A DNA stretch of 64,000 bases from Humidesulfovibrio mexicanus (GTDB lineage Bacteria > Desulfobacterota > Desulfovibrionia > Desulfovibrionales > Desulfovibrionaceae), in assembly GCF_900188225.1 (NCBI RefSeq), contig NZ_FZOC01000002.1:430310-494309 (forward strand), in the 5' to 3' direction. Below are positions 29,039-39,282 of the stretch, in pieces. The number at the start of each line of letters is the position of its first letter. Position 1 is the stretch's first letter. The translations under genes and the position numbers were made by a program. The notes beneath the pieces were generated by a model, which saw only the letters and a list, made by a program, of their open reading frames with translations, was not told the DNA's origin and did not search any database.

Positions 29039-29069
29039 CCTGGTCGTGGCGGAGTAGAGACCGACCAGG
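29039..29069. other. Stem-loop downstream of the caspase-like gene
   Basis: CCTGGTCG and CGACCAGG form a perfect 8-bp stem with a 15-nt loop. There is no T-run, so it is not a classic terminator; it could protect the mRNA 3' end. Confidence 0.4.
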
Positions 29070-29097
29070 AGCCTCCCAGACGTGACGGGCCAAGAAA

Positions 29098-29126
29098 GCA
29101 AAAGCCCCCTCGCCGGGAAGGGGGCT
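29098..29126 (-). terminator. Stranded ssrA terminator at the far side of the island
   Basis: Read on the minus strand, AGCCCCCT and AGGGGGCT form an 8-bp stem with an 8-nt loop, followed by TTTTGCTTTCTT. It lies 25 nt beyond the tmRNA 3'-end copy in the 29144-29169 repeat, in the correct orientation for ssrA. It is best read as the original terminator of tmRNA, separated from the intact gene by the island. Confidence 0.8.
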
Positions 29127-29143
29127 GTGCAGCATGTCGGAAT

Positions 29144-29169
29144 GAGGGACTTGGTGGAGGCGGAGGGAA
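29144..29169. repeat. Island attachment site, remnant side (26-bp direct repeat)
   Basis: It is identical to 38921-38946. The last 18 nt of the repeat correspond to the 3' end of tmRNA (CCA end included) and the first 8 nt to downstream DNA. Left of it lies the native ssrA terminator; right of it, sequence unrelated to tmRNA begins. Confidence 0.9.
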
Positions 29170-29225
29170 ACGCCCGCTGACTGTCTAAGCGCTTGGAATT
29201 ACTTGCTCGCAATGGCCTCCAGCAG

Positions 29226-29268
29226 GCTCCGTGTGTAGCAGCCCTGTGGGGCAGGTTGGCTGGCCTGT
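29226..29268. repeat. Putative integrase arm-type repeat, left end
   Basis: GCTCCG followed by TGTGTAGCAGC, TGTGG, GCAG and GCCTG. It is an imperfect direct copy of 38835-38876. It lies 56 bp inside the attachment core. The rest of 29170-29540 contains no gene I can support. Confidence 0.55.
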
Positions 29269-29540
29269 CCGCAGTCTCAAAGCCTTCAGCGGAAGGCCTG
29301 GATGCGGTTCCCCTCTATGGACCACGGTTCGATTCCTCGTATGTCTTTTGACTGAAACCGAGCAGAGGGTCAATGCCAGCTTCGTGCTGTCCTTCTGTGG
29401 ACAGCCACCCTGTTTTTAGCCAGTGTGATCTTGCCCACAGGGCGCAGGGGATGGAGTCCCCCTTGAACCGCGAATGCCGCTGATGACTCCTGCTGTACGA
29501 ACCACGTGGGAGAACCACGCGCAACAGCAGGAGGCACGCC

Positions 29541-30788
29541 ATGCCACAACAGCTTCCCAAGCCGGTCCGCAACCTGGGCTGGATCAGCTTCTTCACCGAC
29601 TTCGCCTCCGAGATGGTCTACCCTGTGGTCCCGCTGTTCCTGGTGTCGGCCCTGGGCGCGCCTGTGGCCGTCCTCGGCCTCATCGAGGGCGTGGCCGAGG
29701 CCATCGTCAGCGTCATGAAGGGCCTCTCGGGTTGGCACAGCGACAAGGCGGGCAAGCGCGTCCCCTACATCCGGGCCGGGTACGGGCTGGCGGCCCTGTC
29801 CAAGCCCCTCATGGCCCTGGCCTATGCGTGGCCCATGGTGTTCCTCTCCCGCGCCCTGGACCGACTGGGCAAGGGCCTGCGCACAACGGCCCGCGACGCC
29901 ATGATCGCGGACGCCGTGGACTGCAAGATTGCGGGGCGGGCCTTCGGCTTCCACCGCATGATGGACACCGGCGGGGCCATCGTGGGCGTCCTGGTGGCCC
30001 TTCTCCTGCTCAAGCTCCTGCCGGGCGAGTACCGGCTCATCTTCCTCATCGCGGGCTTGCCGGGGTTGGCCGCCATCTGGCTCTCATTCCGGCTGCGAGA
30101 GCTGCGCTGGGCGGACGATCCTGGCGATGGCTGCTCCACAGTGGATTCTGGGCCGGAGCAGGCCACACAGCCCAGCGTGGAGGCTACGGCCCAGGCCAAA
30201 TCGGTAGGCACGCTTGGGTTCTCGTCTGCCTACTGGCTCACCCTGGGCCTGCTCATGCTCTTCGCCTTCGCCAACTCCAGCGACACGCTGCTCCTGTTGC
30301 GGGCCAGGAACCTCGGCTGGGACGACACGCAGGTCATAGTGGGCTACCTGCTCTTCAACCTCACCTACGCCCTGTCCGCCTATCCGCTGGGCATCTTGAG
30401 CGACCGCATGGGACGTTGGCGCATGCTCATCAGCGGGTGGGTGCTGTACGCCGCCGTGTACTTCGGCTTTTCCGTCTCGGATGGGGGCAGCATCTGGTGG
30501 CTGTTCCCGCTGTACGGGCTGTCCATGGGTCTGACGGAAGGCGTGGGCAAGGCGCTCATCAGCGGCCATGTGCCGGTGCTGCGCAAGGGAACTGCGCTGG
30601 GCATGTTCCACATGAGCCTGGGCTTCACCGCCCTGGCAAGCAGCGTGGTGGCTGGCCTCTTGTGGGACCATGTCAGCCCGTCCGCGCCGTTCCGTTTGGG
30701 CGGAACTGTGGCCCTGGCCGCCGTGGTGGCAGGCCTGATCCTGGCCCCGCGCATCGCCAAGGCCGGGAAGGCGGGCAGGGAGGGATGA
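29541..30788 (+). CDS. MFS transporter
   Basis: This 415-residue protein has about 12 membrane spans in two halves. The first half carries the MFS signature region between spans 2 and 3 (LSGWHSDKAGKR) and LSRALDRLGKGLRTTARDAMIAD, which places it in a prokaryotic MFS group of unknown substrate. The second half repeats the loop as YPLGILSDRMGRWRML. The substrate is unknown; being island cargo beside formate dehydrogenase, an oxyanion or formate-related role is only a guess. AGGAGG lies 5 bp before ATG. Confidence 0.88.
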   Translation: MPQQLPKPVRNLGWISFFTDFASEMVYPVVPLFLVSALGAPVAVLGLIEGVAEAIVSVMKGLSGWHSDKAGKRVPYIRAGYGLAALSKPLMALAYAWPMVFLSRALDRLGKGLRTTARDAMIADAVDCKIAGRAFGFHRMMDTGGAIVGVLVALLLLKLLPGEYRLIFLIAGLPGLAAIWLSFRLRELRWADDPGDGCSTVDSGPEQATQPSVEATAQAKSVGTLGFSSAYWLTLGLLMLFAFANSSDTLLLLRARNLGWDDTQVIVGYLLFNLTYALSAYPLGILSDRMGRWRMLISGWVLYAAVYFGFSVSDGGSIWWLFPLYGLSMGLTEGVGKALISGHVPVLRKGTALGMFHMSLGFTALASSVVAGLLWDHVSPSAPFRLGGTVALAAVVAGLILAPRIAKAGKAGREG

Positions 30789-31063
30789 CCATGCCGGAAC
30801 CGACGCATGCCCTTGTCCTAGAATTCGCTCTGTCCGTTGACCCGGAGCGCGATGCCAGCGCCTTGCGGGTCGCTCAGCTCCTGCCGGGATTCGACGTCCA
30901 GGCCCTGGATACAGGCCGCTGCCAGGTGCGGTGCAGCCTTGAAGAGGTCGCTGCGCTGCGGGACGTGGTTCTGGACATTTGGGAACAGGTCCATGCGAGG
31001 TCGGGCGTGAAGCTCCTGCTGCCCACAACGGCCTCGCGGGTCGCCTGCCATATGATGCGCTGA
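30785..31063 (+). CDS. Small protein coupled to the MFS gene, unknown function
   Basis: This 92-residue protein starts at an ATGA overlap with the MFS stop. Its pattern of alternating hydrophobic and charged residues (ALVLEFALSVDPERDASALRV, then VRCSLEEVAALRDVVLDIW) suggests a small alpha/beta fold of ferredoxin-like size. No motif was recognised. Translational coupling implies it works with the transporter. Confidence 0.6.
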   Translation: MTMPEPTHALVLEFALSVDPERDASALRVAQLLPGFDVQALDTGRCQVRCSLEEVAALRDVVLDIWEQVHARSGVKLLLPTTASRVACHMMR

Positions 31064-31468
31064 ATCTGATCCTGCGCGTGATCACACCGAAAAGGGAAAA
31101 ACTTGCACTCCGTGGATTACGGCCCTCTGATCTCCAGCCTGAGGCCTGACATGGCGCTTCAGGCTTGGAGGCAGCCAGGCAGCACAGCAGCCTCACCGAA
31201 AACCGTGGCGATGCCACGAGGACGAAGGCGTTCAAGGAGCGCCCGGCGAAGTAGCCGCACCCCAGGCCAGGGAGTACAGGTCGGACGCCCTGTTCTTGCG
31301 ATGGTTCGGGCTGGCCTCGTTCACCAACGCCATGAGATGCCACGGCGAAGGTCCCGGCTCCAAGCCCCAAGGCTGCAAAGGCGAGCAGTGCAGGACACTG
31401 AGCTGGCGGTGAAGCCGAACAGGGAACACTTCGGCAGAACCGGCCCTTAAACCAGAAAGGAGAAGCGC
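31064..31468. other. About 400 bp of island DNA without a recognisable gene
   Basis: The frames open here are rich in Arg, Ser and Pro and read like non-coding or decayed sequence. No RNA gene, clear terminator or promoter was seen. It separates the plus-strand MFS pair from the minus-strand fdhE. Confidence 0.5.
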
Positions 31469-31540
31469 GTGGGCGAGACCACCAACATGCTCGACGTGGT
31501 GACGAGCCTGGGCCTGGCGGGGAAGGTGATCCAGGTCTGA
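31469..31540 (+). CDS. Possible 23-residue microprotein
   Basis: GTG start with AAAGGAG 6 bp upstream. The predicted peptide begins MGETTNMLDVV and ends GKVIQV, is moderately hydrophobic and ends at TGA. It may be a remnant of a longer lost gene. The only support is the ribosome site and the peptide's non-random look. Confidence 0.3.
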   Translation: MGETTNMLDVVTSLGLAGKVIQV

Positions 31541-31587
31541 TATGGAGGTAGCGCTAATGCGTGCTCTCTTTCTCGACTGTCAGGCCA

Positions 31588-32457
31588 TCAAAAACCCCAG
31601 GCGTAGAGCACGGGTCGGCTGTACCCCTGCTGCTGGGCCATGATGTCCAGCGCGACCGTCGCCAGGTCGTCCAAAGATGGAATGGGGTTCCCGTCCTGCT
31701 CGCGGTAATCAAGCGTCTTGATATACGCCTTGCAGGTGTCGCACACATCGACCCGTACGCCCGGATAATCCTGCACGCGGAACAGCTTGAGCTTATCCTG
31801 GTCAGCCTCATCGCAATAGGCACAGGCGATGCGGCGAATGCGGTACTCATGCGCGCACAAGGAGCATACCGCGTGGCGTTGGCCTTCTGCGCCGCGCAGA
31901 AAGGAGATGAGGGGCTGGCTGCCGCAAAGCGGGCAGTGTCCATGCTCGTAGGGCATGTTCTCCGGGACCAGCTTGGCCAATTGCTCCGCCGCGAGCGCGA
32001 GACTCGGAGCAAGGGCCGAGGTGGTGACGAAGTCCAACGCCCTTGGCGGCCTGGGAACCGCTTCATGAAGGCGTGCGTTCAAGGCCACGGAAGGGCTAAT
32101 CTCCCCGGCATCCACGGCATCTTGAAGCGCCCTCGCCGCCAGGGCGGCCTCTCCGCCACTGTCGGCCATAAGGGCGAGCAGGCGGGGGAACAGCTCCAGC
32201 GCCTGATTCATGTCGCAGGGAAAGTCCCGGCTCGGCAACAGCGGGCGTCCGGCAAACAGCTCTTCGTCGGAAGCCATGGCCTCCCGCGCTGGCAGCGTTA
32301 CTTTGGCCTGCTTCCGGGCGCTCTCCGACAGCAGAATCACACCTTCGACCAGGGTGATGAGTTCGGCCGGAATGATCTGCTGGGCGCGGATAGTGGACAA
32401 CGCCGCCGCCACGGCATCATTGTCAATGGGCGGTACGGCCTGGGGGTCGGCTGGCAT
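31588..32457 (-). CDS. fdhE: Formate dehydrogenase accessory protein FdhE
   Basis: This 289-residue rubredoxin-like iron-binding chaperone is needed for maturation of formate dehydrogenase. The C-terminal half has the paired motifs CPLCGSQP, CSLCAHEYRIRRIACAYCDE and CDTCKAYIKTLD, the expected FdhE pattern of four CxxC units. I chose the ATG at 32457 because it has AAGGAT at proper spacing; an ATG 11 codons upstream lacks one. It is the last gene of the fdhA-fdhB-fdhE set, 111 bp after fdhB. Confidence 0.92.
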   Translation of the reverse strand: MPADPQAVPPIDNDAVAAALSTIRAQQIIPAELITLVEGVILLSESARKQAKVTLPAREAMASDEELFAGRPLLPSRDFPCDMNQALELFPRLLALMADSGGEAALAARALQDAVDAGEISPSVALNARLHEAVPRPPRALDFVTTSALAPSLALAAEQLAKLVPENMPYEHGHCPLCGSQPLISFLRGAEGQRHAVCSLCAHEYRIRRIACAYCDEADQDKLKLFRVQDYPGVRVDVCDTCKAYIKTLDYREQDGNPIPSLDDLATVALDIMAQQQGYSRPVLYAWGF

Positions 32458-32497
32458 TTGCGAATCCTTTGCTTTGCACGCGGGCGGCATGTTGGGC

Positions 32498-32536
32498 GGC
32501 AGCCGCCGACACGGAACGTCCGTGCCAGCGGCTGCC
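32498..32536 (-). promoter_or_regulatory. Two-tier intercistronic hairpin between fdhB and fdhE
   Basis: GGCAGCCGC pairs with GCGGCTGCC (9 bp) and inside it CACGGA pairs with TCCGTG (6 bp), with symmetric 3-nt bulges and a 3-nt loop. No T-run follows on either side. It could limit readthrough or protect the upstream fdhAB message, lowering fdhE expression. Confidence 0.6.
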
Positions 32537-32568
32537 TGTGGAGGTGGATGCTGTGATTTACGTCTGGT

Positions 32569-33303
32569 CTACCCCAGGATGTTCCGAACCGGCTTCATCA
32601 GTCCGGCGAAGAGCTCCTGCCGGGTGTACTCGCGCGGGGCACGCGCGGGTGCATTCGACGCGTCGGCCATCAGGTTTTTGGCGTACAGGTTCGGTTCATC
32701 CGCCGTGAGGAAGATGACGCGAACGCTGTCGGCGTCCACCAGCTGGGCCTTGGGATGCTTCTTCTTGGCCTCGGCAAGACGCTTTTCGGCCAGCTTCAGC
32801 ATGTCGTCGCGGTCGCCGAAGTTCATAGTTCCCGTGGGGCAGGCCTGAACGCAGGCAGGCAGCTTGCCCGCCTTCACGCGGTCGATGCACATGTCGCATT
32901 TGGCGATGACCTTGCTCTTCTTGTCCATCCTCGGCACGTTGTAGGGGCAACTGCCCTGAATCGCGTCGAAGCTCTCCTTTGCGGTCTTGTCGGTGTAGAC
33001 GACCGCGCCGGTGGCCTCGTCAATGACGATGGAGTCCGGCAATTCCGCGCCGGATTTGCACGGGGCCTCCAGGCAGTGGCGGCACTGGTCCGGCGTGAAG
33101 AACCACTTCATCTGGCCGTCCACTTCCTTTTCGCTGAAGCGCACCACGCGCAGGGTGTTGAAGGCGAAGTCCGGCGGATTCTGATAGCTGCCGGTGTTCT
33201 TTGTTTTTTCGCCAGGCAGTTTTTTCCATTGCTTGCAGGCGATCTGGCAGCCGCGGCAGGCTGTGCATTTTGTGAGATCGACGAGGAAGCTCTTACCACT
33301 CAT
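32569..33303 (-). CDS. fdhB: Formate dehydrogenase beta subunit (4Fe-4S)
   Basis: This 244-residue electron-transfer subunit passes electrons from FdhA. Ferredoxin-type cluster motifs are seen at C13/C16/C19/C23 (CTACRGCQIAC), in CRHCLEAPC, in CPYNVPRMDKKSKVIAKCDMC and in CVQACPTG, enough for three to four 4Fe-4S clusters. It has no signal peptide and would ride out with Tat-exported FdhA. No membrane gamma subunit is encoded, so a soluble periplasmic dimer is expected. AAGGAGG precedes ATG at 33303, 11 bp after the fdhA stop. Confidence 0.94.
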   Translation of the reverse strand: MSGKSFLVDLTKCTACRGCQIACKQWKKLPGEKTKNTGSYQNPPDFAFNTLRVVRFSEKEVDGQMKWFFTPDQCRHCLEAPCKSGAELPDSIVIDEATGAVVYTDKTAKESFDAIQGSCPYNVPRMDKKSKVIAKCDMCIDRVKAGKLPACVQACPTGTMNFGDRDDMLKLAEKRLAEAKKKHPKAQLVDADSVRVIFLTADEPNLYAKNLMADASNAPARAPREYTRQELFAGLMKPVRNILG

Positions 33304-33314
33304 GACATGCCTCC

Positions 33315-36300
33315 TTAGGCTTTCCGCACGTTGACCATGAAGGCCTTCGATTCGGGTATGCTGGTGTTGGCGTCGCCCACGGCAGAGGTCAGCAGGTTGG
33401 CGGCATCGCCGCCGTCTTTGGGGAAGCGCCAGCCAAAGTGCCAGGGGATGCACACCTGATGCACCGTGTCCCCCTGGATTGTCATCGGCTTCAAACGCTT
33501 GGTCACGATGGCGATGGCCCAGTTGCTGCCGCGTCCGTTCTCCAGAATGACCTTCTCGCCGTTCTTGATGCCGCGCAGCTCGGCCAGTTCCTCGCTCATC
33601 TCACAGAACATCTGCGGCTGAGCCTCGAGCAACCAAGGCTGCCAACGGGTCATGAGGCCGGTCTGCCAGTGCTCCGCCACGCGGATCGTGCTGCACACGA
33701 AGGGATAGCGCGGGTCGCACACGGCGTACTTGTCTCCCTTGAACTGGAGTGCCGCAGGGTTGTTCAGCACCTTGGAGAACGGGTGCGAAGTCACGGGGCA
33801 GTTCATGGGCTCGTAATGTTCGGGGAAGGGACCGTCGTTCAGGCCGGGGCCGAAGAGCGCGGCCATGCCATGCTGCTGCATGATGAACGGGTGCACGGTG
33901 CCCGGCGCACCGCCGCCGTCCACCACGTCGATGTCCCATTTTTTGCCATCCGCGTTCCAGGCCAGCACGGCCTTTTGCGGATTGTAGGGCTTGCCGGTCT
34001 GGTCAACGCTGGCGCGGTTGTAGATGATGCGGCGATTGACCGGCCAGGACCACGACCAGTTGGGATACAGGCCGACGTTGGCCTGGGCCGGGGTCTGCTC
34101 CTTGGAGCGCTTGGCCGCGCGGTTGTCCTTGGGGTCCGGGCCGACGTAGGAGCCGGAGTATATCCAGTTGCCGCAGGCGGTGCTGCCGTCGTCCTTGAGG
34201 AACAGGAAGCTCTGCACCTGGCTGCCCTTCTTGTAGACCTTCACCGAGCCGTCGGGCTGCTTCTCCTCAACGTCCTTCAGATAGTAACCGTTGATGAGCT
34301 TGGCGGTCTTGTGGACATCGAACTCGTGCCCGTTGCCCATGTCTTCCCAGTTCATGTTCAGCACAGGCTCGGGGAACGCGCCGCCTTCCTTTTTGTACAG
34401 CTCGCGCACTTTCTGGGCCAACTCGTAGATGATCTCGCCATCGGGACGGGCGTCGCCCAAGGGCTTGGGGCCTTGGTAGCGCCACTGCATCCAGCGGCCC
34501 GAGTTGGTGATGGAGCCTTCCTTCTCGGTGGACACTGCGCAGGGCAGCATGAAGACCTCGGTCTTGACCTTGGCCGGGTCCATGCCCGGACCGTGCCAGA
34601 AGCTGCCGGTCTCGTTGTCGAAGATGTTGACGTTGACCATCCAGTCGAGCTTGGCCAGGGCCTGGCGGGTCTTGTTGGAGTCCGCGCCAGAGACGGCAGG
34701 GTTCATGCCCCAGGCGAAGAAGCCCTTGAACTTGCCCTTGAACATCTCATCGAAGAGCACCAGCCAGGAGGCGTTCTGTCCGGCGTCGAGCTTGGGCATC
34801 CAGTTGTAGGCCGTGGCGGGTTCGGCGTCTTTGTAGAAACTCTTGAGCAGGCTCACGGCGTACTTGCCGTAGTTCTTTTTCCAGTTCATGCTTTTGGGAT
34901 CTTTGGACACGGGCTTGATCAGCTTCAGGTAGTCGTCCAGCGTGGGCTGGGCTGTACTTGGGGTAGGCATGTAGCCGGGGATGATGTGGTACAAGAGGGC
35001 CTGGTCCGTGGACCCCTGAACGTTGCCTTCGCCGCGCAGCGCGTTCACGCCGCCGCCAGCCACGCCCATATTGCCCAGCAGAGACTGTATGATGCTCATG
35101 GTGCGGATGTTCTGCACGCCCACTGTGTGCTGGGTCCAGCCCATGGCGTACAGCTCCGTGCCCGCCTTGTCCGGCTTGCCCGTGGCCGAGTAGGCCTTGT
35201 AGACCGCGAGCAGCTTGTCTTCCGGGGTGCCGGTGATGCTGGTCACGTTCTTGATGGTGTAGCGGCTGTAGTGCTTCTTCATCAACTGGTACACGCAGCG
35301 CGGGTTGGCCAGGGTGTTGTCGCGCTTGGGCGCGCCGCTGGCGTCCAGCTCAAAGGCCCATTTGCTCTTGTCGTACTTGCCGGTGGCCTCGTCGAAGCCG
35401 CTGAACATGCCGTCCTTGAAGTCGAAGGCCTTGCCCACGACGAAGGATGCGTTGGTGTAGTTGACCACGTACTCCTTAAAGATCAAGTCGTTCTCAAGGA
35501 TGTAGTTGATCATGCCGCCCAGGAAGGCGATGTCCGTGCCGGAGCGCAGAGGGGCGTAAATGTCCGCCTTTGAGCTGGTGCGGGTGAAGCGCGGGTCCAC
35601 GTGGATGACGGTGGCTCCCTTCTCCTGGGCGCGGGTGATCCACTTGAAGGAGATGGGATGGGTCTCGGCCGCGTTGCTGCCCATGATCAGGATGCAATCG
35701 CTGTTCTTGATGTCGATCCAATGGTTGGTCATGGCCCCACGGCCAAATGTTTCGGCCAAGGCCGCTACCGAGGCGCTGTGGCAGATACGTGCCTGATGCT
35801 CGATGAAAGTCAGGCCGAGGGAGCGCAGGAAGGCCTGGTAGGCCCAGCACTCCTCGCTGTCAAAGGCTGCGGAGCCGACCGAGGCCAGCCCTTCGCAGCG
35901 GTTGACGGTCTGGCCCTTGGCGTTTTTCAGAGCAAAGGTTGCGTCGCGGTCGCGCTTGATGTTCTTGGCGATGCGCTCCAGCGCCCAGTCCCAGGATTTT
36001 TCCTCCCACTTGGTGCCGTAGGGCTTGCGGTACATGACCTTTTGCAGGCGCGGATTCGGCTGGCCAGGCGTGCCTTCGGTCAGCTGGTAGATGCTGCCGC
36101 CCTTGGGGCACAGCGCACCCTCGTTGATGGGATGGTCCGGGTCGCCTTCGATGTTGATGGCGCGCTTGGTGCCCTCAAGGGCGGTGTTGACGATGAGGCC
36201 GCAGCCGACAGCGCAGTAGCAGCAGATTGTCGTGGTCTGCTTGCTCCATTCGGGCTTGAGCTGGGCGATTCGATCGACTTTTGGGGTGCCTGCAGCGGGC

Positions 36301-36401
36301 TTGCCCTTTGCCGGTTTGGCCGCAAAGCCAATGCCGCTGAACGCGGTGGTGAGGGCGGCGGTTGCGGAGAGTTTGATGAACCCTCGGCGTGTGAGCGTCA
36401 T
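33315..36401 (-). CDS. fdhA: Formate dehydrogenase alpha subunit, cysteine form, Tat-exported
   Basis: This 1028-residue Mo/W-bis-MGD subunit oxidises formate (or reduces CO2). The Tat signal TRRGFIK is at residues 4-10. An N-terminal 4Fe-4S site follows (Cys near 60, 63, 67, 98). The active-site segment QARICHSASVAALAETFGRG has Cys near residue 207 at the position that is selenocysteine in E. coli FdnG, with the catalytic His next to it. No in-frame TGA is present. AGGAGG lies 5 bp before ATG at 36401. It was acquired with the island, while fdhD sits outside it. Confidence 0.95.
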   Translation of the reverse strand: MTLTRRGFIKLSATAALTTAFSGIGFAAKPAKGKPAAGTPKVDRIAQLKPEWSKQTTTICCYCAVGCGLIVNTALEGTKRAINIEGDPDHPINEGALCPKGGSIYQLTEGTPGQPNPRLQKVMYRKPYGTKWEEKSWDWALERIAKNIKRDRDATFALKNAKGQTVNRCEGLASVGSAAFDSEECWAYQAFLRSLGLTFIEHQARICHSASVAALAETFGRGAMTNHWIDIKNSDCILIMGSNAAETHPISFKWITRAQEKGATVIHVDPRFTRTSSKADIYAPLRSGTDIAFLGGMINYILENDLIFKEYVVNYTNASFVVGKAFDFKDGMFSGFDEATGKYDKSKWAFELDASGAPKRDNTLANPRCVYQLMKKHYSRYTIKNVTSITGTPEDKLLAVYKAYSATGKPDKAGTELYAMGWTQHTVGVQNIRTMSIIQSLLGNMGVAGGGVNALRGEGNVQGSTDQALLYHIIPGYMPTPSTAQPTLDDYLKLIKPVSKDPKSMNWKKNYGKYAVSLLKSFYKDAEPATAYNWMPKLDAGQNASWLVLFDEMFKGKFKGFFAWGMNPAVSGADSNKTRQALAKLDWMVNVNIFDNETGSFWHGPGMDPAKVKTEVFMLPCAVSTEKEGSITNSGRWMQWRYQGPKPLGDARPDGEIIYELAQKVRELYKKEGGAFPEPVLNMNWEDMGNGHEFDVHKTAKLINGYYLKDVEEKQPDGSVKVYKKGSQVQSFLFLKDDGSTACGNWIYSGSYVGPDPKDNRAAKRSKEQTPAQANVGLYPNWSWSWPVNRRIIYNRASVDQTGKPYNPQKAVLAWNADGKKWDIDVVDGGGAPGTVHPFIMQQHGMAALFGPGLNDGPFPEHYEPMNCPVTSHPFSKVLNNPAALQFKGDKYAVCDPRYPFVCSTIRVAEHWQTGLMTRWQPWLLEAQPQMFCEMSEELAELRGIKNGEKVILENGRGSNWAIAIVTKRLKPMTIQGDTVHQVCIPWHFGWRFPKDGGDAANLLTSAVGDANTSIPESKAFMVNVRKA

Positions 36402-36528
36402 GATGCCTCCTGGGGTTTGGGTGAAAGTCTCAGCCCCCCCGCGTCTCCCGGCAAAACCGGAGCAGCAGGCCAAGGCCTGCGGGAGTTCGAGGTGCTGCGG
36501 GCGCGACCTGCGCCCGAGTGGTCACGGC

Positions 36529-36660
36529 TCATGCCGTGGTCCTCGGGTGCGCGGCGGGTGCGCGACCAATGGCCAGCGGCAAGCGCTGTGGTCGTGCGGA
36601 TAAGCACGGACGGCAAGGCCTGCCGGGTGTGGAGCTGTGGGCGTTGGACGGTGTGTTCAT
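36529..36660 (-). CDS. Possible 43-residue leader ORF upstream of fdhA
   Basis: ATG preceded by a very strong GGAGGAG at ideal distance. The predicted peptide is Pro/Arg/Ser-rich with a CRPC pair and has no family. It ends 127 bp before fdhA. It may be a leader peptide, or a good ribosome site left in front of a rearranged gene. The composition of the peptide argues against an ordinary protein. Confidence 0.3.
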   Translation of the reverse strand: MNTPSNAHSSTPGRPCRPCLSARPQRLPLAIGRAPAAHPRTTA

Positions 36661-36718
36661 GGTCTCCTCCACGGATACTTTAGTGTCATTCACCAATACG
36701 TGCTAGAGCACAAGCAAA

Positions 36719-36780
36719 TGCCAACCGTTCAAGTGTTGACACAAAATGGCAATTATTTGGCATATATGCCGACATTGGCA
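36719..36780 (-). promoter_or_regulatory. Putative regulator-binding region upstream of fdhA
   Basis: This AT-rich stretch stands out in GC-rich DNA. It holds the perfect 12-bp palindrome GGCATATATGCC (36759-36770) and four copies of TGGCA/TGCCA at 36719, 36747, 36758 and 36776. It lies between the ModE-like gene and fdhA, so it is a candidate operator for that regulator. The exact -35/-10 elements could not be fixed. Confidence 0.5.
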
Positions 36781-36860
36781 CATATCCGGTGTGAGGAGGT
36801 CCGGACGCAAGAAAGCGCCCGGCCAGGGTGGTCGGGATCAGAAGGCGGGCTGCGGTTCGT

Positions 36861-37304
36861 TCAAGTGGTCGGGTTGGAGAACCGGGCCACTTTGAATGGG
36901 AACAGGGAGTTGGCGGAGGCTTCAGCGCAGCGCTCCACCGCCTCGAACCAGACTTGGAAGGTGTCGGCCAACTCCTCACCTTCAGGTGTCAGGCGCACAC
37001 CATCGCGGCGCTGCCCACGGCTCTCCACGAGCTTGAGGCCAAGGGCCTGCTCTGTTCGCTGGAGCTTGCCCCAGGCGGCGCGATACCCCATGCCGAGAGC
37101 CTTGGCTGCCTGGCGCAGGGAGCCGTGCTGTTTGATGCAGAAGAGGAGCTGGGCGCGGCCTATGCCGAAGAAGACTTCGCCTTGGCTCTCAAGCCAGAGG
37201 TGCAGGCGAATGGTGGGGCTGGGAAAACCGGTGGGGTGCAGGGGCGACTTCTCAGGGCCTGTGGTGGACCCGTCCGGACCGGACGGGAGTGCGCGGGTGG
37301 TCAT
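36861..37304 (-). CDS. ModE-like winged-helix regulator (DNA-binding domain only)
   Basis: This 147-residue protein has a LysR/ModE-type winged helix at about 45-130 (LLFCIKQHGSLRQAAKALGMGYRAAWGKLQRTEQ, then LVESRGQRRDGVRLTPEGEEL). The C-terminal molybdate-binding MOP domains of full ModE are absent, so how it senses metal is unclear. It lies just upstream of the Mo/W enzyme fdhA in the same direction, which suggests control by molybdate or tungstate. GGAGGG upstream of ATG is rather distant. Confidence 0.78.
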   Translation of the reverse strand: MTTRALPSGPDGSTTGPEKSPLHPTGFPSPTIRLHLWLESQGEVFFGIGRAQLLFCIKQHGSLRQAAKALGMGYRAAWGKLQRTEQALGLKLVESRGQRRDGVRLTPEGEELADTFQVWFEAVERCAEASANSLFPFKVARFSNPTT

Positions 37305-37436
37305 AGGGAGCGCGCCCTCCCCGCCTTTGGCCAGCCCGCAAATACGGCGGGGGCCTTCGGCATTGTGGTGATGAACTGGGTCATGTTTGCCTCCGGTGGT
37401 GTGCGCCGTGGACAGTCCAACGGCGGTTACGGCTGC

Positions 37437-38834
37437 TTAGCACAGCTCTGGGGCAGTGAACAAGGATGACACCTGGGCGGGATCGGACGCTGGCCCTCCC
37501 CCGAGTTTTTGACGCAAAAATTTGAGCGCCGCATCGTACTTGGTCCGATCCCGATTCTCCCCCCGTGCGGGGCGTCGGGTCTGGCGCGGATGGGCTGGGC
37601 TTGGGGTGCGGATGGTCGGCTCCGTCGTCCCCTGGCGGCTTCGTAGGACGTACCCTCCACCTCTTGACATCAAACAAACGAAGGTCTCCGGCGAGAAGTA
37701 CAGCCGGATGTCCTCGGGGGTGAGGGGGCTGCGATGCTCGTGGTCCTGTTTCGTGGTCTTGATGGTGAGGATGTCCGAGGCGATGGTCGGGTCGTTGTGG
37801 TAGCGGTGCTTCTTGGCCCACTTGAGGAACGCCCCGATCTTGTTGAAGTAGTTCTTCAAGGTGGTCGGCTGGAGGCGCTGTGCTTCCGGCACCTCGGCCT
37901 TCAGCACCTCCTCCATGGTCATGTCCCGGTAAGGGGCGAGCTTGCTCCTGTTGGCGGGGAAGCGGAGTAGGGCAGCCTTCAGGTCGCGCATGTCCTCGAT
38001 GGTCAGGCTGGCGAGGTCGCGGTCCAGCCCCATGATCTCCGCGAACAGGCGGACCTTCGCGCCCTCCTTGTACTCTGTGCCGTTCTGCCACTCCCCGGAC
38101 TCCCGCTTTTCCTGGGTGTAAAGGTCCACGGCCTTGCCCAAGGAGATGGTGGCCTGGATCGGCGAAGTGGTCCATTGGGCAAGAGGTGGGATGGTAGGGC
38201 GTTCTGAGAGAGCGCCAAAGGGGGCTGGCAGAGGCGGTGTGTCCACCACGTCGCCAAGATGGCGCTTGGCCTGTCGGTCGGTGGCCGAGACGATGGTTTT
38301 CAGAAAGCGGTAGCCCAGGGTCTTGAAGGCCTCGCTGTTTCGATCCAAGTCAAAACCATGGCCCCAAAGCCAATCTTCGACGACTTCAGCAGCTACGCTG
38401 ATGTCACCACGCGCCAGGGCGCGGCGAAAAAGGGCAAGGCGTTCTTCGTGCTCTTGGTCCATCCTGTCGAACATGAAGTCATCAAGACCGTTCTGGCGCA
38501 TCTCATCGTCGGCCCTGAGCATGCTGTGTTCCAGCAGGAGGACCAAGCGATCCATCTCAAGCTCAGTAATGCTTGAACGCGGCTGGGCTTTGACCTTTGG
38601 GCGGGCCGTCGCCTGCGCCTTGGCGCGGCGTTCCTCGAATTCCTGGTCAAGCCGGACGGCCTCAAGGCGGGCCTTGGCGCAGGCTGTCTTGTAGTCGGCG
38701 GTTCCCAGGCTGTAAGACAGCTCCTTGCGGCCATCGTAGTGGTCAACAAGATCGAGTGGGATGCGGCGACGGTAGTGGAACTGGGTGGATGCCTTCCGGC
38801 GGAAGACTCCTTGGCATTTTGGCATATCCTTCAT
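37437..38834 (-). pseudogene. Tyrosine-type integrase, catalytic domain lost
   Basis: The N-terminal about 390 residues match a phage/island integrase: an N-terminal arm-binding part (FHYRRRIPLDLVDHYDGRKELSYSLGT) and a core-binding domain ending KYAKK-like FLKWAKKHRYHNDP and SPLTPEDIRLYFSPE. After that point the expected catalytic domain with the R-H-R-Y residues is missing. The frame instead runs about 70 residues of Pro/Arg-rich sequence to a stop (465 in all). A deletion or frameshift has fused it to unrelated DNA. It lies 94 bp downstream of the tmRNA 3' end, on the same strand. Confidence 0.85.
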
Positions 38835-38876
38835 GCTCCGCTGTGTAGCAGCTTTGTGGAGCAGTTGGAAGCCTGC
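38835..38876. repeat. Putative integrase arm-type repeat, right end
   Basis: An imperfect direct copy of 29226-29268 (GCTCCG, TGTGTAGCAGC, TGTGG, GCAG, TTGG, GCCTG). It lies 44 bp inside the right attachment core. In the circular form of the island the two copies would flank the core in the same orientation. Confidence 0.55.
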
Positions 38877-38920
38877 AAGACCAGTAATGCCAAGGAGTCC
38901 TTGAGAAGTCAGTATCTTGC

Positions 38921-38946
38921 GAGGGACTTGGTGGAGGCGGAGGGAA
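38921..38946. repeat. Island attachment site, tmRNA side (26-bp direct repeat)
   Basis: An exact copy of 29144-29169. It contains the 3'-terminal 18 nt of ssrA plus 8 bp beyond the CCA end, so integration leaves the tmRNA sequence intact. Confidence 0.9.
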
Positions 38947-39282
38947 TCGAACCCTCGTCCGAGAACGCTTTGCGCGTGGCGTCTACAGGTTTAGGGCAGG
39001 TATGATTCTCGTCGTTTCACTAGCCCCTGCCCAGGCATGAAACGACATGTCCGCCTTGTGCCGCGTGCATACGGCGGACGCCATCTGCACGCCGTCCCGA
39101 TGGGTTTTGTCGATCCTTAAGACGTATCGGACGTCGGTCAGAAGGATCGTGGCTGGGTATTAGGCAGCCAGAGCGTAATCGTAGTCGTTGGCACTTGAGT
39201 GCTTGCCGCTTTTTACGAGGCCAGCGGCGCCTCGACCTGCAGCCACGGCATCGACTGTCCCCGTCGAAACCGGTGCGCCCCC
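38929..39282 (-). ncRNA. ssrA: tmRNA (transfer-messenger RNA)
   Basis: This 354-nt RNA rescues stalled ribosomes. The 5' end GGGGGCG pairs with the 3' CGCCTCC (one G-U pair) to form the acceptor stem, followed by A-CCA encoded in the DNA. The conserved 5' segment GGTTTCGACGGGGAC and the T-arm GGTTCGATTCC-like sequence are present. The mRNA-like part encodes the tag ANDYDYALAA followed by TAA (39160-39192). No terminator follows the gene at its present position; the apparent native one lies at 29098-29126. A TATTAT hexamer at 39311-39316 may belong to its promoter. Confidence 0.96.

Follow-up and report, generated by a model that had tools for sequence, protein, structure and literature searches.

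A terminator probably displaced from ssrA by a genomic island, and candidate hairpins over the starts of DUF6538 integrases behind tRNA and tmRNA genes

In our study, what appears to be a 9.8-kb genomic island was found at the 3' end of the ssrA (tmRNA) gene of Humidesulfovibrio mexicanus, and a strong intrinsic terminator was found past the far end of this island. The whole stretch of DNA analysed, called the window hereafter, is 64,000 nucleotides long. Integration at the ssrA 3' end would move the ssrA terminator to the far side of the island. We give a probability of roughly 0.55 to the reading that this has happened here and that elements with a DUF6538 integrase often guard the integrase gene, either by a terminator or by a hairpin over its start. 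Bacterial islands insert preferentially at tRNA and tmRNA genes, whose promoters face the inserted element. The way in which the element escapes or exploits transcription of the RNA gene bears on whether it stays put. The coordinates of the features are listed in Table 1.

Table 1. Features of the island and its borders (positions in the window)
Feature	Position	Strand	Basis
ssrA (tmRNA), tag ANDYDYALAA	38929..39282	-	ARAGORN; Rfam RF00023, 190.3 bits
att core at ssrA end: last tmRNA bases plus AGTCCCTC	38921..38949	-	direct repeat D3
Distal att core copy, 28/29 nt identical	29144..29172	-	direct repeat D3
Intrinsic terminator, probably the displaced ssrA terminator; T-rich tail to about 29091	29103..29126	-	spacing and score typical
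Putative guard hairpin, left arm, 14 nt	38886..38899	-	14 perfect pairs with 38805-38818; duplex z -5.6; fold
Putative guard hairpin, right arm, in first integrase codons; no U-run after	38805..38818	-	pairing, duplex z
Arm-type-like repeat D1, within the hairpin loop	38842..38864		87% to distal-end copy
Arm-type-like repeat D1, distal island end	29232..29254		repeat search
Integrase remnant, DUF6538 domain; start ATG 38834 or 38825; catalytic C-terminal part missing	37437..38834	-	PF20172 only
HTH protein, LysR-type HTH domain, between att copies	36861..37304	-	PF00126
Formate dehydrogenase-like molybdopterin (alpha) subunit, no in-frame stop, between att copies	33315..36473	-	PF00384, PF04879, PF01568
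Iron-sulfur (beta-like) subunit, between att copies	32569..33453	-	PF13247
FdhE, between att copies	31588..32490	-	PF24860, PF24859
MFS transporter, between att copies	29541..30788	+	PF07690
Fluoride riboswitch directly 5' of the MFS gene, inside the island	29438..29499	+	RF01734, 54 bits

Materials and Methods

The ssrA gene was detected in 252 of 297 genomes, and 141 distinct 3' flanks, that of the window included, were taken from among the matches listed. Three of these flanks were too short to score, 138 were searched for integrases and 136 had 150 nt or more. The shuffled flanks used for the terminator score keep base counts only. The integrase match of L050 was dropped, its ORF having looked unrelated to integrases.

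The integrase pool was drawn from the order (30 loci and 60 fetched stretches), from named genomes (79 loci) and from earlier loci. Among 172 distinct DUF6538 integrase N-termini, a tRNA or tmRNA gene was found within 320 nt upstream in the same direction in 122 and in the opposite direction in 2. Removal of duplicates reduced the 122 loci to 120, and 119 rows were scored; the rows are non-independent (77 clusters), with L382 in twice and L366 and L368 as near-copies. Duplex energy was calculated between the upstream stretch and the integrase start zone, against shuffles of the upstream stretch. The shuffles of this survey (duplex z, stems, motifs, long-loop terminators) preserve the dinucleotides of the sequence that was shuffled. 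A script picked the start codons, and its choice looks wrong in L326 and L366, which works against the hairpin class there. The ARAGORN tmRNA call of L251 is doubtful, because this locus clusters with mostly tRNA-Ser loci.

The island at the ssrA 3' end

The att core repeat is 29 nt long with one mismatch and includes eight nucleotides past the tmRNA 3' end. This repeat, together with the integrase gene (a DUF6538 remnant) which adjoins ssrA, is what marks an ssrA-integrated genomic island. The integrase gene is co-directional with ssrA and starts 94 or 103 nt past the tmRNA. It aligns with residues 1-361 of a 556-aa relative, and full-length relatives carry PF00589; no significant match to C-terminal remains was found in 29101-39000. 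An integrase with a catalytic domain, as an active mobile element would have, was thus absent from the window, and the island would be stuck at its place. The D1 pair lies just inside both island ends, as would be expected of integrase arm sites. A third, weaker arm-like copy (74%) was found at 37434-37456, where the truncated integrase frame ends. This copy may be the scar of the rearrangement by which the catalytic part was lost. Near the distal end, nucleotides 29319-29336 form an 18-nt inverted match (89%) to the ssrA T-arm, possibly by chance.

The genes between the att copies include those of a formate dehydrogenase-like enzyme. Among the alpha-subunit homologues listed at 80% identity or more and near full length, 11 of 12 contained one in-frame TGA and the twelfth a TAA. 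A second copy in the same genome (G000:C2:164513-167620, 82%) belongs to the 11 and has one in-frame TGA. The alpha subunit of the island may be the Cys form of a usually selenocysteine enzyme. The formate dehydrogenase genes lie inside the island, and an FdhD gene (PF02634, 26310-27488) lies outside the distal border, past the caspase-domain gene described below.

A terminator past the far end of the island

A first-pass annotation of this DNA had placed, on the minus strand, a copy of the tmRNA 3' end, followed 25 nt later by a GC hairpin and a T-rich tail. This was confirmed in our analysis, with a slightly longer repeat (29144-29172) and a stem (29126-29103) of 8 Watson-Crick pairs and one G-U pair. 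The loop has 6 nt and is followed, after the stem, by TTTTGCTTTCTT; the distance from the CCA of the distal copy to the stem is 25 nt. A GC-rich stem with a short loop and a T-run after it is the sequence pattern of an intrinsic terminator. As a bare pattern, such sites are not rare: 13 were counted in the 12 kb of this region, where shuffles gave 10.5 (sd 3.2), and the 64-nt flank that carries the hairpin gave a fold z of only -1.18. The distal hairpin is notable because of its place and its strength. Its score was 33 on our own scale; a score of at least 28 was found in 89 of 141 ssrA flanks and in 2 of 136 shuffled flanks. The stem was found 14-35 nt past the CCA in the middle half of 86 terminator-bearing flanks of the non-DUF6538 classes, with a median of 24 nt, so that a displaced ssrA terminator fits well. 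The next gene past the hairpin is not another integrase; it encodes a caspase-domain protein, runs convergently and ends about 100 nt past the stem. The tail sequence was similar to that of other ssrA terminators in 2 of 141 flanks, too few to use.

To judge from these sequence features, the hairpin at 29103-29126 is probably the terminator of ssrA itself, pushed 9.8 kb away by the island. The first-pass annotation had further held that no terminator follows the intact ssrA and that joining the two repeats restores a complete ssrA-terminator arrangement. The former statement stands for ordinary terminators, as the terminator scan found no short-loop terminator after the real ssrA gene (3' end at 38929); the annotation had, however, missed a long hairpin that covers the start of the integrase. 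The latter gains from a spacing and strength typical of the order, from the caspase neighbour and from the precedent of ICEKp1; the relatives gave no confirmation.

Relatives in the genus

A search of relatives for the same hairpin directly 3' of ssrA had been proposed. It did not recover the hairpin there in 14 other genomes of the genus, none of which is a demonstrated clean empty site. As an arrangement, the flank 29040-29172 was absent from these 14 genomes, several of them incomplete. It matched ssrA 3' ends and att-like pieces; the remaining matches, to the hairpin part, were short and weak (E 0.057 and above) and lay off the ssrA contigs. Searches of the genus for an empty site, with the neighbouring caspase gene or the flank DNA as the query, found none; the caspase gene and ssrA lie on separate contigs in the 8 relatives in which the two were detected, all of them drafts. 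In two relatives rated 99-100% complete (G009 and G012), no ssrA match exceeded the family cut-off, possibly through assembly gaps.

The distal terminator could instead have come from an earlier, now lost neighbouring element, through tandem accretion at ssrA, and would then not be that of ssrA. Att-like copies away from ssrA, each with a terminator after it, were found in two genomes. One in G003 (L040:13863) has 2 mismatches in 14, lies 11 kb from ssrA and is then followed by a TTTGACATCC stretch which resembles that of other elements; the other is on contig C69 of G001. In addition, 8 of 10 other ssrA flanks of the genus carry their own strong terminator, and in 5 of these 8 an integrase lies beyond the terminator. 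After the distal copy of the window there is no TTGACATC-like stretch, and the next gene is the convergent caspase-domain gene, which argues against this origin, and we judge it unlikely. Because of the copies in the two genomes, an own terminator of ssrA is likely and not proven. One flank of the genus (L043, in G013) contained a strong terminator with no integrase detected; about 0.9 kb past its ssrA begins a 626-aa ORF, which looks like a chloride-channel protein.

Integrases behind ssrA across the order

A strong terminator was found within 220 nt of ssrA in 89/141 flanks. Among the 136 flanks, it was present in 56 of the 87 without a detected integrase and in 30 of the 39 with a best integrase match of the L036/L040/L041/L047 type (L041, for example, has the Pfam domain Arm-DNA-bind_3). 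The flanks with a DUF6538-type integrase contained one in only 2 of 10. The integrases behind ssrA are co-directional with it, with a match in 49 of 138 flanks and 0 on the other strand.

In the ten flanks of DUF6538 type, the integrase starts 83-128 nt past the CCA. Two of them have an ordinary terminator and the other 8, the window included, a long-loop inverted repeat, the right arm of which lies over the integrase start or first codons, as judged by stems and folds. In L200 the stem is 15 bp over the ATG with a loop of 39 nt, and in L039 it is 11 bp over the ribosome-binding site and ATG with a loop of 27 nt. In L048 the ATG lies within the stem and a T run follows inside the first codons.

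The hairpin over the integrase start in the window

The inverted repeat of the window starts 29 nt past the tmRNA CCA and has 14 perfect base pairs (16 pairs in the predicted fold) around a loop of 67 nt. Its right arm lies 16-29 nt past the first ATG (38834) and 7-20 nt past the second (38825). The 149-nt junction between ssrA and the integrase was folded, and 2 of 200 shuffles folded as well as the native sequence. The right arm is followed by TTCCGCC and not by a U-run, and this locus is outside the 23 long-loop-terminator rows of the survey below. The absence of a U-run and the 67-nt loop rule out the 38899/38805 hairpin as an ordinary terminator. Since the integrase also lacks its catalytic domain, we regard the hairpin as a relic.

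The predicted mean openness of the start zone was 0.32 in the read-through transcript, 0.37 in a circle transcript and 0.46-0.52 in transcripts starting inside the loop. For the right arm, the corresponding values were 0.01, 0.11 and 0.31-0.42. The predicted change in accessibility at the integrase start is thus modest. A simple sigma-70 promoter scan found none in the hairpin loop and none for ssrA either, so the scan says little on a promoter in the loop.

DUF6538 integrases behind tRNA and tmRNA genes

Across the survey, the start zone paired with upstream DNA in more rows than expected from the controls. A duplex z of -3 or lower was found in 27 of 119 rows and in 2, 3 and 2 rows for zones lying 40, 80 and 120 nt further in. 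Perfect stems of at least 9 bp were present in 21/119 rows, against 2, 3 and 2 in the control zones and 1.2 on average (at most 3) in the shuffles. The look of a long-loop terminator over the integrase start was found in 23/119 rows (shuffle mean 1.8, maximum 4); four of the 23 (L243, L291, L311 and L314) were counted among the short-loop terminators as well. When each cluster was represented by a single row, z was -3 or lower in 19 of 77, against 1, 1 and 2 in the control zones. The carriers of the start hairpin include Trichlorobacter thiogenes (L342), Marinobacter salexigens (L360), Oleispira (L366, L368) and Pseudodesulfovibrio (L326, L327), and a hairpin arrangement unique to the present genome was rejected. 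That a GC hairpin near the att copy and an inverted repeat near the integrase start arose by chance has some backing in the terminator-like patterns frequent in the region and in the 2/200 junction shuffles. Against this stand the control zones, the shuffles and the cluster representatives across elements, and we consider the chance very slight.

Among rows that lack a short-loop terminator, the low duplex z was found in 23 of 65, and among those that have one, in 4 of 54 (p=3e-4). The start hairpin and the ordinary terminator thus appear to trade off in DUF6538 elements. It was also found in 13 of 24 tmRNA rows and in 14 of 95 tRNA rows (p=1e-4). By script, 42/119 rows, 7 of the 24 tmRNA rows among them, had neither a hairpin nor a short-loop terminator. 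When these 7 were inspected by eye, a start hairpin was seen in L326 and L327 (both also listed as long-loop terminators), a hairpin ending just before the start in L340 and a longer-loop terminator in L173 and L251; nothing was visible in L345 and L376. The best integrase matches within the genus, L136/L115 and L137/L122 at tRNA-Ser, have neither a hairpin nor a short-loop terminator. Together with the 42 rows, they indicate that the guard is not universal.

Compensatory changes were observed in some pairs. In a comparison of four related ssrA elements (L228, L406, L183 and L048), both sides had changed with the pairing kept in 6 of 31 predicted pairs, a count made with no null model, and some predicted pairs were broken in one sequence. 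L262, a relative of the window's element at tRNA-Ser, has a perfect stem of 12 bp over the same integrase codons, with a duplex z of only -2.1.

Two or more TACAC/TACAA motifs were found in 42/119 upstream stretches, against 2.3 in shuffles, which suggests that these motifs are arm sites of the integrase. Their presence in the same stretch could favour a site at the DNA level, such as a palindromic operator or a recombination site, over an RNA hairpin. The loop differs in length between loci (27 nt in L039, 39 nt in L200 and 67 nt in the window), the arms diverge in sequence but still pair, the right arms coincide with the start zone, and T-runs come after them in the 23 long-loop-terminator rows. 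A DNA-level site is therefore quite improbable in our view.

Proposed mechanism

With the integrase gene head-to-tail behind ssrA, ssrA transcription would enter the integrase. From the arrangements above we infer read-through, occlusion, termination and an internal promoter as follows. DUF6538 elements would have two types of guard. The first would be an ordinary terminator between the RNA gene and the integrase. The second would be a hairpin with a long loop, in which the ribosome-binding site, the start codon or the first codons of the integrase form part of the right arm. In the read-through RNA the left arm would be made first, the hairpin would close over the integrase start and translation would be blocked; where a U-run follows, read-through transcription could also end there. 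A transcript starting inside the loop could be translated, because it has no left arm. The circle transcript keeps the left arm (openness 0.37), so that an internal promoter would be needed. In the window, the tmRNA 3' ends would come from processing or from termination at a site further downstream. Terminators with a long loop are as a rule weak, which counts against the guard reading.

A further proposal is offered tentatively, with the odds somewhat against it. DUF6538 elements may build the integrase start codon into a replacement terminator of their tRNA or tmRNA, which would end the host RNA and silence the read-through integrase, with only loop-born transcripts translated, among arm sites; the copy of the window would have decayed. 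If true, an integrase start in a hairpin stem would be a compact answer to read-through, recognisable in sequence and testable with reporters. Such start hairpins would predict insulated islands, islands that are perhaps driven by host RNA promoters, and host RNAs dependent on a terminator borne by the element.

The integrase could also use the promoter of the RNA gene on purpose, with the hairpin only tuning down a read-through that is needed. According to the available part of one report, the tRNA-asn promoter drives int of ICEKp1 by co-transcription, and stem-loops of the int 5'-UTR lower the amount of full-length transcript; the same was argued for ICEEc1 and ICEclc (PMC13023037, 2026), and the gene order is the same here. 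A stem that covers the translation start, whether at the ribosome-binding site, the start codon or the first codons, should silence the read-through message and not tune it, and a short-loop terminator lies in between in 54/119 rows. We consider deliberate promoter use somewhat unlikely, and a guard over the integrase remains our preferred reading.

Comparison with known systems

Our literature search was limited, with many subscription papers outside its scope. In it, we recognised no description of an integrase start codon inside a read-through hairpin of an RNA gene, and found no paper on 'DUF6538'. Within this search, the stem taking in the integrase start, the link to DUF6538 and the apparent trade-off with ordinary terminators were not found described. 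Insertion sequences such as IS10 and IS200 have read-through protection, by which outside transcripts are kept silent. The comparisons that follow refer to those parts of the cited papers that were available. In ISPpu9, likewise, mRNA structure can hide the ribosome-binding site of the recombinase (PMC8450116), whereas IS10 (PMC5006887), IS200 and ISPpu9 (PMC8450116) are transposons without a fixed RNA-gene neighbour.

The Dehalococcoides islands resemble the present one in having respiration genes at ssrA and direct repeats of the ssrA 3' end as bounds, but they carry a serine recombinase and not a tyrosine recombinase (PMC3146451). In Escherichia coli, the prophage CP4-57 also lies directly downstream of ssrA; its excision deletes one ssrA base and inactivates tmRNA, which differs from our case (PMC10107115). 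The same-direction order of tRNA and integrase is the commonest one (736 of 1273), and the STI-shape pairs and KplE1 intS share with the window the same orientation with the RNA gene first (PMC2951348). In these pairs the integrase promoter overlaps attL, and self-regulation was proposed to be common. Control there is by binding of Int and RDF to DNA at the promoter, and no read-through hairpin was found described in the available part of that source (PMC2951348).

ICEKp1, ICEEc1 and ICEclc resemble the present case in their insertion at the 3' end of an RNA gene, a terminator displaced, here probably, to the far side and a co-directional int downstream (PMC13023037). The 5'-UTR stem-loops there are potential terminators, whereas here the stem takes in the integrase start or first codons; no stem overlapping the integrase start was found described in the available part of that report. 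The target there is tRNA-asn or tRNA-gly, with int 161 to about 200 bp away, and here it is tmRNA, with a DUF6538 integrase. In ICEKp1, integration displaces the tRNA-asn terminator to the far end of the element (PMC13023037). In the window, a terminator of typical kind was found past the far end of the element and may descend from that of ssrA. The displacement which the first-pass annotation had proposed is thus of a kind already known for tRNA-targeting ICEs, here at a tmRNA gene.
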